Positions 5,640 through 11,318 of a DNA stretch of 64,000 nucleotides are shown in pieces. Within the stretch, counting starts at the first letter, position 1, and each line of letters begins with the position of its first letter. Both the position numbers and the translations under genes were made by a program. The notes under the pieces are model-generated. The model ran no database searches, was not told the origin of the DNA, and saw nothing but the letters and a program-made list of their open reading frames with translations. Origin of the DNA: Herbaspirillum sp. WKF16 (lineage in GTDB: Bacteria > Pseudomonadota > Gammaproteobacteria > Burkholderiales > Burkholderiaceae_D); assembly GCF_028993615.1 (NCBI RefSeq), contig NZ_CP118632.1, positions 1,364,001-1,428,000 of the forward strand, given 5' to 3'.

Positions 5640-7100
5640 ATGAAATTATTTGAACCCAATATGGGCGCGCTGCAAGTCGCGCGCGACGTGCTCCTGACCC
5701 CCTTCGGCCTGGACGAATCCAAGCTGCTCAGCGCGCTGGGCAGCATGTTTTCGCACAAGGTCGACTACGCCGACCTGTACTTCCAGTTCACCAAGAGCGA
5801 GGGCTGGAGCCTGGAAGAGGGCATCGTCAAGACCGGCAGCTTCTCGATCGACCAGGGCGTCGGCGTGCGCGCGGTGTCGGGCGACAAGACCGCGTTTTCC
5901 TATTCCGATGAAATCTCCGAACGCGCCCTGCTCGATGCGGCGGCGGCCACGCGCACCATCGCGCGCCAGGGCGCCGGCAAGGTCAAGGTGGCTGGTTCCA
6001 TGATCCCGGCCGGCGGCCGCGCGCTGTACCTGCCGCACGACCCGCTGAACTCGCTGGACGCCACCGCCAAGGTGCAGCTGCTGGAGCGCATCGAACGCAT
6101 CGCGCGCGCCAAGGATCCGCGCGTCAAGCAGGTCATGGCCAGCCTGGCGGGCGAATACGACGTGGTGCTGGTGGCGCGCGCCGACGGTGTGCTGGCCGCC
6201 GACATCCGTCCGCTGGTGCGCGTGTCCGTGACGGTGATCGCCGAGCAGAACGGCCGTCGCGAGATGGGCAGCAGCGGCGGCGGCGGCCGTTACGACTATG
6301 CCTACTTCTCCGACAGCCTGCTGGAGCAATACGCGTCCGAAGCGGTGGCCACCGCGCTGGTCAACCTTGATTCGCGTCCGGCTCCGGCCGGCCCGATGAC
6401 GGTGGTGCTCGGCCCCGGCTGGCCCGGCATCCTGCTGCACGAGGCGATCGGCCACGGCCTGGAAGGCGACTTCAACCGCAAGGGCTCGTCCACCTTTGCC
6501 GGCCGCATCGGCCAGCGCGTGGCGGCCAAGGGCGTGACCGTGGTCGACGACGGCACCATCGCCGACCGCCGCGGTTCGCTCAACATCGACGATGAGGGCA
6601 ACCCGACCCAGTGCACCACGCTGATCGAGGACGGCATCCTCAAGGGCTACATGCAGGACACCATGAACGCCCGCCTGATGAAGACCGCCATCACCGGCAA
6701 CGCGCGCCGCGAATCCTTCGCACACCTGCCGATGCCGCGCATGACCAACACCTACATGCTGGGCGGCGACAAGGACCCGGGCGAGATCCTGGCCTCGGTC
6801 AAGAACGGCCTGTACGCGGTCAACTTCGGCGGCGGCCAGGTCGACATCACCAACGGCAAGTTCGTGTTCTCGGCCAGCGAGGCCTACATGATCGAGGACG
6901 GCAAGATCACCTATCCGGTCAAGGGCGCCACGCTGATCGGCAACGGTCCGGACGTGTTGAACCGCGTCTCCCTGATTGGCAACGACATGCGCCTGGACTC
7001 GGGCGTGGGCGTGTGCGGCAAGGAAGGCCAGAGCGTCCCCGTGGGCGTGGGCCAGCCGACGCTGCGCCTGGATGGTGTGACGGTGGGCGGCACGGCCTGA
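5640..7100 (+). CDS. tldD: Metalloprotease TldD
   Basis: 486-residue protein matching TldD/PmbA family proteins along its whole length. The zinc-binding HExxxH signature is present as HEAIGH at residues 267-272, followed by the typical GLEGDFNRKGSS. TldD acts with TldE (PmbA) as a heterodimeric protease on unfolded peptides, for example in maturation of microcin B17 and degradation of CcdA. The partner pmbA is not in this window. ATG at 5640 (MKLFEPN) is preferred over the upstream in-frame TTG at 5613, because the shorter form gives the usual family length. A strong hairpin follows the stop codon. Confidence 0.95.
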   Translation: MKLFEPNMGALQVARDVLLTPFGLDESKLLSALGSMFSHKVDYADLYFQFTKSEGWSLEEGIVKTGSFSIDQGVGVRAVSGDKTAFSYSDEISERALLDAAAATRTIARQGAGKVKVAGSMIPAGGRALYLPHDPLNSLDATAKVQLLERIERIARAKDPRVKQVMASLAGEYDVVLVARADGVLAADIRPLVRVSVTVIAEQNGRREMGSSGGGGRYDYAYFSDSLLEQYASEAVATALVNLDSRPAPAGPMTVVLGPGWPGILLHEAIGHGLEGDFNRKGSSTFAGRIGQRVAAKGVTVVDDGTIADRRGSLNIDDEGNPTQCTTLIEDGILKGYMQDTMNARLMKTAITGNARRESFAHLPMPRMTNTYMLGGDKDPGEILASVKNGLYAVNFGGGQVDITNGKFVFSASEAYMIEDGKITYPVKGATLIGNGPDVLNRVSLIGNDMRLDSGVGVCGKEGQSVPVGVGQPTLRLDGVTVGGTA

Positions 7101-7160: not shown

Positions 7161-7382
7161 TCAGTATTGCTCTTCGTATGTCGGACGCGATCCGTGACAT
7201 TGCTCGCGCTTGCGCGATGCCGATACGTAGAGCCAGTAGACATTAGTGCACTGATCGCTTGAAGCTTTTCGAATAGTCAATTGATCCTTACAAGTGCCCC
7301 CTGTCTTGCCACAGGAGTTCGGCAATATTTCCCCACTCGCTATACCTGCCTGGACGACGATACGAGATCGATCCATGTCCAC
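7161..7382 (-). CDS. Possible small cysteine-containing hypothetical protein
   Basis: A 73-codon leftward frame that starts with GTG (an in-frame ATG lies two codons later) and ends nine bases from the tldD terminator. The C-terminal half contains four Cys (CGKTGGTC, QCTNVYW, QCHGSRP), which could make a small disulfide-bonded secreted protein, but no signal peptide or clear ribosome site is visible. An in-frame stop lies three codons before the GTG, so it may be the 3' remnant of a longer gene. I recognise no family. It lies at the edge of an A+T-rich, IS-scarred region and may be non-functional. Confidence 0.3.
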   Translation of the reverse strand: MDMDRSRIVVQAGIASGEILPNSCGKTGGTCKDQLTIRKASSDQCTNVYWLYVSASRKREQCHGSRPTYEEQY

Positions 7383-7516
7383 GCAATGTCAGCGATCTTT
7401 ACATACACCGTTCCACTTCAGCCATCGTCAAATGCCCTTCGCAAAGCTTGCCGGACGCTGTTGACCTGCAGGGGCTACAAAGCGATCTTTAATAACATAT
7501 CTGGAGTGCCTAAACC

Positions 7517-7855
7517 GTGAAAGTGAAATGCATTCGCCTGTTAAATGCCGATGGCGAAGATGTTGAATCTTCGCCTTGGATAACACTCGGTCGTGTCTAT
7601 CATGTGATGGAGGTCTATGTTGCGCCAGATGGGAAGTGTAGCTTCAGCATCATCAATCATCCTTCTGAAGGAAAATGGCCCCAGATGGCATATCAACATG
7701 CTGAGTGCTTCGAGGTAATTAGTGAGAAAGTGCCTTCCAATTGGCGTGAGTGGAAAAATCAGCATGCCTGTGGCACGGGACCTGAGGCATGGCAATCTCC
7801 TGGATTTCTTGAAGCGTTTTACGATCATGATCCGGCGACCTATCCGATTTTTTAA
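7517..7855 (+). CDS. Orphan immunity-like small protein, apparently nonsense-truncated
   Basis: 112-residue acidic cytosolic protein starting at GTG. Its features (start MKVKCIRLL, middle PSNWREW, end FYDHDPATYPIF) resemble small proteins usually encoded directly downstream of Rhs/CDI-type polymorphic toxins, that is, putative immunity proteins. No toxin gene is adjacent. The frame stops at TAA 7853-7855, but the same frame continues RERDIILSEDP and then TGA at 7889-7891, which looks like a natural tail for such a protein; a single substitution (for example GAA to TAA) would explain the early stop. Base composition is clearly lower in GC than the neighbouring core genes, consistent with horizontal origin. 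The immunity assignment is an inference from resemblance. Confidence 0.55.
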   Translation: MKVKCIRLLNADGEDVESSPWITLGRVYHVMEVYVAPDGKCSFSIINHPSEGKWPQMAYQHAECFEVISEKVPSNWREWKNQHACGTGPEAWQSPGFLEAFYDHDPATYPIF

Positions 7856-7967
7856 CGGGAGCGCGACATCATTCTGAGCGAAGACCCCTGATTGAAAGTC
7901 AGAGGTTATTAGAGATGAAAAAATCAAAGCTGAAATCTGTCGATGCGTTGGCAACTGGTGAAAGAGT

Positions 7968-8951
7968 GTGGTCTTGCCTGAATCAAAATCCTTTTCTCAA
8001 AAGAATAAAAGGTTTAGCCCCCGATCTATCAAGCTGGCATACGCGCTCATGCCGTGGATCGCCAACACCACGGCTACGACTCGTCAGCAACAACGAGAAC
8101 TCATCGATCATCAGCGGCCCCAAGCCTGCTCCATCCGACGAGGATGCCAAATGATTGATCTGCCGCATAGCACCTACTATTACCAGCCTAAGCCGGCCAC
8201 TGCCGCACTTAGCGATCATGAGCTGGCTCAACTAATAGGTGACATCCACGATGTCTTTCCAGGTTATGGCTATCGTCGAATCACTTTGGAGTTGAAGGCG
8301 CGCGGGCATGTGGTCAATCACAAACGCGTAGCGAGGATCGTGCGTGAGCACGAGGTGTACGGCCACCACCGACGCAGATTCAAGTCGGTGGCCGGTTCTG
8401 AGATTGATGTCGCAGTTTTTCCCAGTCGCTACCGCAACGTCATTCCAACGGAGCCTGATCGTGTTTGGGGCGCCGATATTACCTATATCCGAATGGTATC
8501 CGGCTTTATCTACCTGGCCGTTGTCTTGGATGCTTGCAGTCGCAAGGTAATCGGCTACGCTTTATCCAAGCGTATCGATACCCCCTTGGCCCTGGCGGCG
8601 TTGACAGCAGCCTACAGAATCCGTAAGCCAGCACCCGGCACGCGCATTCATCATGCCGATCGCGAGTGGCAATACGGGAGCGCGTTATATCAAGAGGCGC
8701 TGGACGAATTCGGTTTGATTGGTTCAATGAGCGCACCGGCCAATCCGTATCACAACGCTCAGGCGGAGAGCTTCATGAAGACGCTCAAGGTCGAAGAGAT
8801 CTATCTAGCCGGTTATGAGAAATTCGACGATGTGGCTCGCAGGCTGCCGTACTTCCTCGAAGAGATATGCAACGAACGGCGCATGCATTCTGCGCTGGGC
8901 TACCAATCACCTAACCATTTCGAAGCACAATTCGCTCTGCAAGCGGCTTAG
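7968..8951 (+). CDS. IS3-family transposase OrfB (orfA missing)
   Basis: 327-codon frame whose residues from about 40 onward form a nearly complete IS3-family OrfB integrase. The catalytic triad is intact: Asp170 (WGADITYI), Asp231 (HHADREWQY) and Glu267 (AQAESFMKTLK), with the typical 35-residue D-E spacing. An HTH-like lead-in (SIRRGCQMIDLPHSTYYY) precedes it. The usual HSDRGSQY around the second Asp is changed to HADREWQY. No orfA with its HTH and leucine zipper lies upstream, so the normal OrfAB fusion made by programmed frameshifting cannot form. The first 30-40 residues are probably read from flanking sequence. The element is most likely inactive. Confidence 0.75.
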   Translation: MVLPESKSFSQKNKRFSPRSIKLAYALMPWIANTTATTRQQQRELIDHQRPQACSIRRGCQMIDLPHSTYYYQPKPATAALSDHELAQLIGDIHDVFPGYGYRRITLELKARGHVVNHKRVARIVREHEVYGHHRRRFKSVAGSEIDVAVFPSRYRNVIPTEPDRVWGADITYIRMVSGFIYLAVVLDACSRKVIGYALSKRIDTPLALAALTAAYRIRKPAPGTRIHHADREWQYGSALYQEALDEFGLIGSMSAPANPYHNAQAESFMKTLKVEEIYLAGYEKFDDVARRLPYFLEEICNERRMHSALGYQSPNHFEAQFALQAA

Positions 8952-9029
8952 TCTCTCGATCAGCCTTGGTCCAGTCGGAGGGGGCACTCCAGTGCCCTGG
9001 ATGAATTCGCGCCACGGCTCTCGGCCTAG

Positions 9030-9194
9030 ATCAGCGCTGAGGCAGTCAAATCGCGCAAGCAGCGACGAACCATGAAACAAATGTTCCTGGACTTAAGGGA
9101 GCTGGGATATGAAGGGTCTTATGAGCGCGTGGCAGCTTTCGGGAGGCAGTGGAAGGTGGGGCAAATGGGGAGGGGCAATTCTGCGAGCAAATCA
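9030..9194 (+). pseudogene. IS21-family IstA transposase remnant
   Basis: About 55 codons (after an in-frame TAG at 9027) read SRKQRRTMKQMFLDLRELGY and continue with EGSYERVAAFGRQW. From family knowledge this matches the segment of IS21-type IstA just before the catalytic domain. The frame then diverges from any transposase after NSASKS. No catalytic domain and no istB follow, so this is a decayed stub joined to unrelated sequence. Confidence 0.6.
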
Positions 9195-9254
9195 ACAAAC
9201 AGGCAATTCGAGAGTGGCCCCTTGTCGAAAACGAGCCAGACCATAATTCTGATC

Positions 9255-9557
9255 ATGAAACCCGATGCCATCATTCGTGTGCGTTTCAAAAAAACAGCAG
9301 AGAACGGCAGGAGTTCGGCTGTTGAAGGGGAGTTTTATGCGTGTCCGTTATTTATCGATGGGCAGGCATACGATTGTCGTCTCCTTCTCTCTGGTAGGTG
9401 TTTGGAACTTGGTGAGTATTATGAAGTTCCGGTTAAGTTTCTGCATCGAGACTTTGCGATTCTCCAATTAGCCGCAGGAAAAAATGTGGTGTTGTGGGAA
9501 GGTAAAGATGTTGCAAATGGAAGTATCGTGTCATTGTGTGAAGGATTGCTTGCTTGA
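9255..9557 (+). CDS. Hypothetical protein, possible orphan accessory/immunity type
   Basis: 100-residue protein starting MKPDAIIRVRF, with motifs EGEFYACPLFIDG, YDCRLLL and LWEGKDVANGSIVSL, suggesting a compact all-beta fold. It is read in the same frame as the upstream istA stub (whose ATG at 9072 would give a 161-residue chimera), but the ATG at 9255 is a more sensible start because the preceding residues have no resemblance to this domain. No good ribosome site is visible. Similar small proteins often lie near Rhs/CDI loci, but I cannot assign a function. Codon use and GC are lower than in the surrounding core genes. Confidence 0.45.
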   Translation: MKPDAIIRVRFKKTAENGRSSAVEGEFYACPLFIDGQAYDCRLLLSGRCLELGEYYEVPVKFLHRDFAILQLAAGKNVVLWEGKDVANGSIVSLCEGLLA

Positions 9558-10006
9558 TGAACAGCTTAGTCGTAGTCCCCGCCCATCGCCATGTGTTGAT
9601 ACTGGTATTCTTTAGCGACTGCAAGTTATGGCTATGATGGGGCGATGCGAATACCAGCCGGAGATTTCTCTGGACGAGTTGAAGACAAGTCGGCCTACCT
9701 GAGAGGTATATAAGTAGCTATCCGTCCATGACGCATTGATGCGCGACTTTGCCCCCAATGTGGAAGTCGTCTACGGTCGACATAAAATCGATGTGTGCGA
9801 ATAGTTCACTTGCTTCAATGCTGCGTTTTGCATTGATACAACAGACTCTTGCTTCAGATCATTGCAAGATTGCTTGCGTCTGCCGTGGTTGTTTTTTGTG
9901 TTTCTTTCGGATTTTTTATTTAAATTTATTTAAAAATTTCATAAGTGATCAATTTTTAGGGTGATTTGTGCGTTTTTTATAAGGGTTTATCGGATATCGA
10001 TCTCCC
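9558..10006. other. A+T-rich spacer without recognisable genes
   Basis: About 450 bases between the orphan gene and the aroG leader. No coding frame is convincing. The right half (about 9885-9990) is very rich in A and T, with runs such as TTTTTTATTTAAATTTATTT, unlike the GC-rich core. It may hold upstream promoter elements or binding sites of nucleoid proteins for aroG, but no specific site is identified. Confidence 0.6.
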
Positions 10007-10035
10007 TTGTCAAAGCCCAGGATTTGTAGCACTAT
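10007..10035 (+). promoter_or_regulatory. Candidate sigma-70 promoter of the aroG leader
   Basis: TTGTCA (10007-10012; five of six consensus bases), a 17-base spacer and CACTAT (10030-10035; a weak -10). It would start RNA near 10042, just before the leader peptide, as is typical for attenuator leaders. It is a pattern match only; other A+T-rich hexamers upstream cannot be excluded. Confidence 0.4.
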
Positions 10036-10069
10036 GGGTGCTGGTTCAAATTTATCCATGCAGCCAAAG

Positions 10070-10150
10070 ATGTCTTTCTTCCGCGCTTACTTTTATTTTT
10101 ACTTTAGCTATTCCAGCCCCACGGCGGTGAAAAGCGGTAAGCGTTCGTAA
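10070..10150 (+). CDS. Phe/Tyr-rich leader peptide controlling aroG
   Basis: A 26-codon open frame beginning MSFFRAYFYFYFSY and ending with TAA at 10148-10150. Nine of its first 14 residues are Phe (5) or Tyr (4), with an uninterrupted Tyr-Phe-Tyr-Phe-Tyr-Phe run at codons 7-12. An in-frame ATG at 10058 could add four residues (MQPK). The frame sits about 100 bases before aroG and immediately before a perfect terminator hairpin, the classic layout of amino-acid attenuators such as pheA or trp leaders. Translation should stall when charged tRNA-Phe or tRNA-Tyr is scarce. No strong ribosome site is visible; AAAG lies just before the ATG. The function is inferred from composition and position. 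Confidence 0.82.
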   Translation: MSFFRAYFYFYFSYSSPTAVKSGKRS

Positions 10151-10186
10151 AAAGACAAAACCGAATTTCCTAAAAAACCGCCAGTG
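10120..10186 (+). promoter_or_regulatory. Antiterminator pairing in the aroG leader RNA
   Basis: CACGGCGGT (10120-10128, inside the leader reading frame) can pair with ACCGCC-A-GTG (10177-10186), giving nine base pairs with one bulged A. This pairing uses the left arm of the terminator, so the two structures exclude each other. A ribosome stalled on the Phe/Tyr codons (10088-10111) leaves CACGGCGGT free; a ribosome reaching the stop codon covers it. A further long-range match, CGCTTAC (10084-10090) with GTAAGCG (10137-10143), could form when the leader is not translated. Confidence 0.65.
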
Positions 10187-10202
10187 ATGGCGGTTTTTTT
10201 TT
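10172..10202 (+). terminator. Attenuator terminator upstream of aroG
   Basis: AAAAAACCGCC and GGCGGTTTTTT form a perfect 11-bp stem around AGTGAT, followed by further T residues to 10202. It lies between the leader stop codon and the aroG ribosome site (GGAG at 10239-10242), so it is a conditional terminator inside the transcript. It could also stop leftward transcription because of the A run. Confidence 0.9.
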
Positions 10203-10247
10203 GGTCGATATTCACGCTGATACAGCCAAAGCAATCCTGGAGAAAAC

Positions 10248-11318
10248 ATGCCGCGCACTGACGATCTTCGCATCCGAGAAATGAAAGAACTGGTCCCTCC
10301 TTCGCATTTGATCCGCGAGTTCGCCTGCACCGAAAAGGTCGAGCGCACCACGGCAGAAGCGCGCACCGCACTGCACCGCATCCTGCACGGCCAGGACGAT
10401 CGCCTGATGGTGGTCATCGGCCCGTGCTCCATCCACGACACCAAGGCCGCGATGGAATATGCCCGCCGCCTGGTGGCCGAGCGCGAGAAGCACAAGAACG
10501 AGCTGGAAATCGTGATGCGCGTGTACTTCGAGAAGCCGCGCACCACCGTCGGCTGGAAGGGCCTGATCAACGACCCGTACATGGACAACAGCTTCCGCAT
10601 CAACGACGGCCTGCGCGCCGCGCGCGAGCTGCTGTTGAACATCAACGACCTGGGCCTGCCGGCCGGCACCGAGTTCCTGGACGTGATCAGCCCGCAGTAC
10701 ATCGCCGACCTGATCAGCTGGGGCGCCATCGGCGCGCGCACCACCGAGTCGCAGGTGCACCGCGAGCTGGCCTCGGGCCTGTCGTGCCCGGTCGGCTTCA
10801 AGAACGGCACCGACGGCAACGTCAAGATCGCGGTCGATGCGATCAAGGCCGCTTCGCAGCCGCACCATTTCCTGTCGGTCACCAAGGGCGGCCACTCGGC
10901 CATCGTGTCGACCGCCGGCAACGAGGATTGCCACATCATCCTGCGCGGCGGCAAGGCGCCCAACTATGATGCCGCCAGCGTGGAAGCGGCTTGCCAGGAC
11001 ATCGCCAAGAGCGGCCTGGCGGCGCGCCTGATGATCGACGCCTCGCACGCCAACAGCTCCAAGAAGCCGGAGAACCAGATCCCCGTGTGCGCCGATATCG
11101 GCGGCCAGATCGCCGCGGGCGACACCCGCATCGTCGGCGTGATGGTGGAGTCGCACCTGATCGCCGGCCGCCAGGACCTGGTGCCGGGCAAGGAGCTGAC
11201 CTACGGCCAGTCGGTGACCGACGGCTGCATCAACTGGGAGGAGAGCGTGCAGGTGCTGCAAGGCCTGGCCGATTCCGTCAGGCAGCGCCGGTTGGTGGGC
11301 GAGCGCGACGCAGCCTGA
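10248..11318 (+). CDS. aroG: 3-deoxy-7-phosphoheptulonate synthase, class I (DAHP synthase)
   Basis: 356-residue type I DAHP synthase, which condenses phosphoenolpyruvate and erythrose 4-phosphate in the first step of the shikimate pathway. Family signatures include VIGPCSIHD, YFEKPRTTVGWKG, SCPVGFKNGTDG, KGGHSAIV, ILRGGKAPNY and MIDASHANSSKKP. The length matches the feedback-regulated AroF/AroG/AroH type of enterobacteria; which amino acid inhibits it cannot be told from sequence alone. GGAG lies five bases before the ATG. Expression is likely controlled by the Phe/Tyr attenuator just upstream. It is monocistronic, closed by a strong terminator. Confidence 0.97.
   Translation: MPRTDDLRIREMKELVPPSHLIREFACTEKVERTTAEARTALHRILHGQDDRLMVVIGPCSIHDTKAAMEYARRLVAEREKHKNELEIVMRVYFEKPRTTVGWKGLINDPYMDNSFRINDGLRAARELLLNINDLGLPAGTEFLDVISPQYIADLISWGAIGARTTESQVHRELASGLSCPVGFKNGTDGNVKIAVDAIKAASQPHHFLSVTKGGHSAIVSTAGNEDCHIILRGGKAPNYDAASVEAACQDIAKSGLAARLMIDASHANSSKKPENQIPVCADIGGQIAAGDTRIVGVMVESHLIAGRQDLVPGKELTYGQSVTDGCINWEESVQVLQGLADSVRQRRLVGERDAA

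Follow-up and report, generated by a model that had tools for sequence, protein, structure and literature searches.

A probable ribosome-mediated attenuator rich in aromatic codons upstream of aroG in Herbaspirillum and its relatives

Described leader attenuators and the aroG locus

The nearest precedent that we found for the element described here appears, by analogy, to be the aroR leader of aroF in Corynebacterium glutamicum. That leader was predicted from RNA-seq, according to the excerpt of PMC4046766 that we consulted, and passages of a review (PMC11802643) report that limitation of Phe leads to stalling and to more transcription, while the supply of Tyr is without effect. The likeness, drawn by description only, lies in a leader peptide with Phe-Tyr-Phe ahead of a DAHP synthase gene. 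The aroR host is, however, an actinobacterium; Phe-Tyr-Phe is what the review passages name there, whereas the leaders studied here have group means of 5.3-8.3 aromatic codons; and aroF is one of two DAHP synthases in C. glutamicum (PMC4046766, same excerpt), compared with the lone enzyme found here. The same review passages describe the enteric pheA (pheL) and pheST leaders as leader-peptide attenuators set by charged tRNA-Phe, and the trp operon leader (trpL) as belonging to the same mechanism class, with Trp control codons; in these respects both resemble the aroG leader. Unlike the pheA and pheST leaders, which have other target genes, the aroG leader carries Tyr and often Trp codons; and unlike trpL, which concerns one amino acid and a terminal branch, it stands before the common first step and concerns two or three aromatic amino acids. 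In the part of PMC1262725 consulted, Panina 2001 and Vitreschak 2004 are cited as papers on proteobacterial attenuators. No published description of an aroG leader element was found in the titles and abstract beginnings of the literature searched.

The window (the whole stretch of 64,000 nucleotides of Herbaspirillum sp. WKF16 that was analysed, part of a 4.99-Mb genome) carries aroG, for DAHP synthase, the first step of the shikimate pathway, on the forward strand at 10248..11318, with its ATG at 10248. The protein matches NCBIfam NF006723 above the cut-off (598.6 bits vs 568) and is 97% identical to the AroG of a Herbaspirillum MAG. Ahead of it, on the same strand, the sequence and the list of open reading frames give a leader peptide frame at 10070..10150 (ATG at 10070, TAA at 10148-10150) of 26 sense codons, MSFFRAYFYFYFSYSSPTAVKSGKRS, which recurs in relatives and is, as in ribosome-mediated attenuators, short and rich in codons for the end products of the pathway. 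The control codons, five Phe and four Tyr within codons 3-14, occupy 10076..10111 (+). Folding and alignment place an intrinsic terminator between this leader and the biosynthetic gene, at 10172..10202 (+): arms 10172-10183 and 10188-10199 form a 12-bp stem closed by a GTGA loop and followed by a T run reaching 10202 (-16.4 kcal/mol, z -5.8). A motif scan of 9850-10300 reported neither a promoter nor a terminator; since folding shows the terminator, its omission is probably due to the rule of the scan, the stem entering its own T run. An earlier, sequence-only reading of this DNA had described the 26-codon frame with its five Phe and four Tyr codons among the first 14 and aroG downstream, all borne out by the sequence, the frames and the NF006723 match. 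It had also described a perfect terminator at 10172-10202; the position and T run stand, and the stem, given as 11 bp, folds as 12 bp. That observation was correct almost to the base.

The aromatic run stands out from its background. In the 300 bases upstream of aroG the best density of Phe, Tyr and Trp codons in a short ATG frame is 9 in 12 codons, which was reached in none of 2000 dinucleotide shuffles; the maximum was 3 in 12 at 76 other upstream regions, those of the window's frames of at least 200 codons, taken mechanically as long frames and not as proven genes. A promoter-like TTGTCA-17-CACTAT at 10007..10035 (+) gives a putative start for the leader transcript; its 8 of 12 consensus matches are attained by about 25% of shuffles, are weak by themselves and fall short of the stricter promoter rule of the scan. 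Among 79 leaders, 29 have a best promoter match of 10 of 12 within the 100 bases that precede the leader, a score that 0.5% of shuffles reach, and several Burkholderiaceae leaders have just 4-6. A plasmid BLAST search with 10007-10248 gave no match.

The DNA preceding the leader in the window differs from that of its relatives. Between tldD (stop at 7100) and the aroG leader lie about 2.84 kb (7161-10001), where a related locus (L003), 89% identical to the window on both flanks of this replacement, has 223 bases. The GC content of this DNA is lower, and a transposase-like frame is found at 7968-8951 (rve integrase core and HTH_21), which we take to be IS3-like. The stretch stops five bases short of the promoter-like site and leaves the leader intact.

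When the element of the window and those of 12 related loci were compared with known RNA families, none in Rfam reached its gathering score. RF01859 (Phe_leader) aligned over its full length to 10069-10203 with 26.4 bits, against a gathering score of 55 and 20.2 bits on the opposite strand; with the score threshold not reached, the relation is one of likeness and not of membership. We consider it highly probable (about 0.88), from the sequence and from modelled RNA folding, that aroG is controlled by classical ribosome-mediated transcription attenuation. This reading draws on the sequence of the element, its conservation, the alternative pairings found by folding and its genomic position, all of them observed. 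The aroG leader would then be a ribosome-mediated attenuator whose target is unusual and whose codon set, in many lineages, covers three amino acids. It would govern the entry to aromatic amino acid synthesis in many bacteria related to Herbaspirillum and Burkholderia. As an RNA element it stays below threshold for every Rfam family, and it yields a codon-level prediction for each amino acid; naming it would also flag a family of short genes which may escape the usual gene callers.

Conservation in near relatives, the order and the class

In the best 80 aroG relatives among the matches listed (records titled Oxalobacteraceae, Burkholderiaceae or MAGs), an aromatic run and a terminator precede aroG in 79, the exception being L024. 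The run is free of internal frame shifts in 77 and shifted inside in L059 and L062. Absence of the leader was ruled out for L004, L007, L012, L017-L019, L036, L044, L048, L055 and L067, the frames of which show leaders. Oxalobacteraceae leader peptides resemble MSFARFYFYFYFSYSSPKAVEKR and those of Burkholderiaceae MSAKFYFYFFWYLRPLADREG. In 27 Burkholderiaceae leaders, five of the six third positions of the FYFYFF codons vary, compared with one of the 12 first and second positions, and the sole change there replaces Phe by Tyr, so that third-position variation keeps the residues; this codon pattern is what selection on residues read by a ribosome would give. The tail of the peptide is less constrained: it shifts frame in the window's clade and in L013, L025 and L037 with the aromatic run kept. 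In the window's clade the loss of one base after GGCGGT changes the end of the peptide from AVEKR to AVKSGKRS, the adjoining RNA being otherwise much alike. Between families the peptides diverge, and the Phe and Tyr codons and the GGCGG element persist. In the Oxalobacteraceae genome of the exception (L024 and L123, one genome with the same sequence, through which the near set and the order sample overlap) aroG starts 36 bases after tldD with neither leader nor terminator, which suggests loss or replacement of the attenuator.

The order was sampled by an even draw of 160 genomes, 126 of which had an AroG match; the upstream DNA of 100 was analysed, with the best AroG copy of each. The element precedes 36 of these 100 genes, in 13 of 32 families, and the other 64 have no recognised leader. 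This count comes from an automatic rule, after which inspection by eye brought in seven loci (L199, L205, L211, L214, L156, L135 and L192) and took out one; the latter, L197 (f184), had passed on a frame of 58 residues and was judged a false positive. At least seven aromatic codons in 12 were found in 26 of the 100 upstream regions, vs 1 of 2000 shuffles. Genome G464 also carries the element and adds a 14th family. The 110 leaders used below leave aside L024, L059 and L062, and from the order sample L121, L122, L124, L125, L126 and L135, the groups of which were already represented or which were found late.

Covariance models gave a further view of this distribution. A model built from Burkholderiaceae only matched 99 of 399 genomes of the order at E 0.01 or better, the window with E 4.3e-9; many of the weak matches are to the terminator only. 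In genomes with a listed AroG, 29 of the 31 full-length model matches share the strand of AroG and precede it by 27-146 bases. The Oxalobacteraceae model finds one strong place in the window's genome (E 5.3e-25), and its next match (E 0.017) overlaps the same terminator on the opposite strand. Matches of the R2 model in G389, G429 and G428 and the second in G510 were rejected; they lack an AroG frame downstream and, on inspection by eye, resemble ordinary hairpins.

Some individual loci of the order deserve mention. A 1.2-Mb genome of family f201 keeps a leader, MAAKLYFYFFANLKLAEGDGC, before aroG (L262, G465:C1:89500-90900), and no leader was seen in two other small f201 genomes, G303 and G346. 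In L184 (f213) a terminator of the form CCGCCA...TGGCGG precedes aroG without an aromatic run, and is possibly a decayed attenuator.

In the class sample 25 of 30 loci, the window's own included, were examined by motif, which missed L086, L089, L094, L106 and L111. Besides the window's own, 2 of the 24 loci carry the element, both of family f14 and outside the order, and 22 were without it. These two loci, L084 and L087, belong to another order and have the same leader design, MNAARASFYFWYYFPKPLAEEG; their AroG proteins, 71% and 69% identical to that of the window, are the two highest among the matches listed outside the order. Either transfer or old inheritance may account for the f14 leader.

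Alternative pairings, the proposed mechanism and its rivals

Four regions can be defined in the leader RNA. Region 1, the RNA of the aromatic run (10083..10103, +), pairs in the absence of a ribosome with 10126-10144, which is the second half of region 2 plus the tail; the fold of 10083-10150 has stems of 9 and 8 bp (-18.8 kcal/mol, z -1.7), and 16 of 200 shuffles are as stable. Region 2, the 5' arm of the antiterminator, is CACGGCGGT at 10120..10128 (+), and region 3, its 3' arm and at the same time part of the terminator, is ACCGCCAGTG at 10177..10186 (+); region 4 completes the terminator. In the minimum free energy structure of 10109-10190 (z -2.0; 8 of 200 shuffles as stable), region 2 pairs with ACCGCC-A-GTG with one bulged A. 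The antiterminator seen by folding and alignment uses the 5' arm of the terminator, and the two are mutually exclusive.

Of 110 leaders, 107 have the core of region 2, GGCGG, inside the frame of the peptide (L138, L198 and L219 lack it by pattern, which reduces the set to 107). This core duplicates the 3' arm of the terminator, so that region 3 (CCGCC) can pair either way. It starts at a median of 14 bases (1-20) past the start of the last preceding aromatic codon, 10-43 bases (median 16) ahead of the stop codon and 41-77 bases (median 57) ahead of region 3. The complementarity of region 2 is significant at 0.05 in 73 of the 107 leaders, each taken singly. Three alignments were made (A1, 44 leaders; A2, 26; A3, 43). 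Across the 43 sequences, terminator positions form standard pairs in 99.0% of cells, with both-side changes at two pairs, and the antiterminator pairs in 84.7%. Its covariation score is attained by 4 of 500 shuffles, and two of the five covariation measures (both-side changes and further pair types) are no higher than in shuffles. Because the antiterminator core hardly varies, covariation support is confined to one pair, the sixth, which is UA in 17, CG in 9, UG in 2 and AU in 1 and unpaired in 14 of the 43. An inner extension of the antiterminator stem was also considered (mean z -0.62 in 95 sequences, with 12 of 14 group means negative) and was dropped, the signal being modest.

The pairing of region 2 with ACCGCC-A-GTG across one bulge had been proposed in the sequence-only reading, along with RNA folding and a comparison of the frame and the exclusive stems among relatives as checks. 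The pairing reappeared in the computed structure, folding gave mutually exclusive alternatives, and the comparison was passed in 79 of the 80 near relatives and in the 36 of 100 genes order-wide. Recurrence before aroG and the exclusive stems support its interpretation as an attenuator.

In the mechanism that we propose, RNA polymerase would transcribe the leader and a ribosome close behind would translate the peptide rich in Phe and Tyr. When charged tRNA-Phe or tRNA-Tyr, and in many relatives tRNA-Trp, is scarce, the ribosome would stall on the run and cover region 1, leaving region 2 free; region 2 would then pair with region 3 before region 4 is made, no terminator would form and aroG would be transcribed. 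When charged tRNA is plentiful, the ribosome would reach the stop codon, region 2 would be covered or recaptured by region 1, and with region 2 unavailable regions 3 and 4 would form the terminator, stopping transcription before aroG. What we infer is that the leader is translated, that ribosomes stall on it and that aroG responds to the supply of amino acids.

We simulated nascent folding with RNA made only up to region 4 and with an assumed ribosome footprint reaching 12 bases past the start of the A-site codon. For the window, the simulated probability of the antiterminator (2:3) is 0.00 without a ribosome vs 1.00 with one stalled at the first, middle or last aromatic codon. With a mid-run stall it attains at least 0.5 in 100 of 107 simulated leaders and stays below in 7. 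In free nascent RNA it is below 0.5 in 56 of the 107, the window included, and the antiterminator forms without a ribosome in 51: all 28 Burkholderiaceae leaders, 8 of 50 of the Oxalobacteraceae type and 15 others. In these 51, we infer from the model, termination would need a ribosome covering region 2 near the stop codon; the start of region 2 lies beyond the assumed footprint edge in 24 of them, nine by one base. Once the RNA is complete and free, the probability of the terminator is at least 0.9 in 99 of 107 leaders; with the terminator dominant there, the switch must be kinetic, its timing deciding the outcome. In known attenuators timing decides likewise.

Three other explanations were weighed. 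The hairpin might be the terminator of an upstream gene, tldD in the relatives, with the Phe/Tyr frame arising by chance or going untranslated. Such an account would suit the presence of the TldD C-terminal motif upstream in 55 of the 80 relatives and the small Shine-Dalgarno signal of the leader, the pairing of which is nearly absent (median -0.1 vs -6.4 kcal/mol for aroG). However, in 51 of those 55 the leader lies between the two genes, tldD stopping 257-569 bases ahead of aroG, and in the window the element is kept although about 2.8 kb of other DNA break the tldD neighbourhood. Given also that no shuffle produced an equally aromatic frame, that the Phe/Tyr run is conserved at the level of codons, and that a GGCGG arm lies inside the frame at a limited distance from region 3 in nearly all leaders, we regard this explanation as very improbable.

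We give just as little credence to the idea that the peptide works through nascent-chain arrest, or as a functional small protein, and not as a codon counter: the leader frame and its aromatic residues are indeed conserved, but apart from aromatic content the peptides differ widely between families, and members of one family differ in the frame of the tail. A trans-acting factor or ligand (an RNA-binding protein, a riboswitch or a T-box) that flips the terminator could draw on the 51 leaders with a ribosome-independent nascent antiterminator, where another factor could enforce termination. Against it, no Rfam family reached its gathering score for the window or the 12 related loci, and the aromatic codon run makes up much of what is conserved outside the stems; this explanation too seems most unlikely. 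Classical attenuation is the reading that we retain.

Amino acids that the leader may read, and the lone DAHP synthase

Both Phe and Tyr codons occur in 104 of the 110 leaders, Trp codons in 56 and all three in 53. The codon mix differs between lineages: Phe and Tyr in the window, the leader of which has no Trp codon, and Phe, Tyr and Trp in Burkholderia and several other families. Trp codons are present in 27 of 28 Burkholderiaceae leaders and in all leaders examined of f192 (4), f174 (3), f2 (4) and f14 (2). Profile searches with PF00793 and PF01474 found aroG as the only DAHP synthase in the window's genome. The second PF00793 match there is a KDO8P synthase (kdsA tested) and not a DAHP synthase, and PF01474, for the class II enzymes, has no match in the genome, so that the synthesis of Phe, Tyr and Trp appears to depend on one enzyme. 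A single AroG match, with class II enzymes outside the count, accompanies a leader with all three kinds of codon in G275, G276, G283, G323, G329, G340, G365, G381 and G430. The Trp codons beside Phe and Tyr in those 53 leaders, the lone DAHP synthase and the folding of the run onto region 2 go beyond what the sequence-only reading had seen.

We give somewhat less than an even chance to a further possibility: in many lineages the availability of Phe, Tyr and Trp may be read by one leader, which would set the lone DAHP synthase as an RNA logic gate with a codon mix tuned to the lineage. Such a leader might be a natural sensor of three amino acids and, if so, one RNA logic gate would replace the separately controlled isoenzymes of E. 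coli. It had also been suggested that attenuation acts here in place of repression by TyrR or TrpR. The genome is consistent with this in a weaker form: no TrpR (PF01371) was matched in it, and PF18024 (HTH_50), which we take to be the TyrR-type HTH, has two matches, both below the cut-off. The part of PMC5343134 consulted describes TrpR and TyrR as conserved in many gammaproteobacterial groups and absent from other classes.

No aromatic leader was seen ahead of pheA. The DNA before trpE of the window's genome (L263:1155-1241) has a short frame ending AWLWRRWQFKAL, near which no clear T-run terminator was seen by eye; it holds three Trp codons, starts 271 bases before trpE and is a possible Trp leader.
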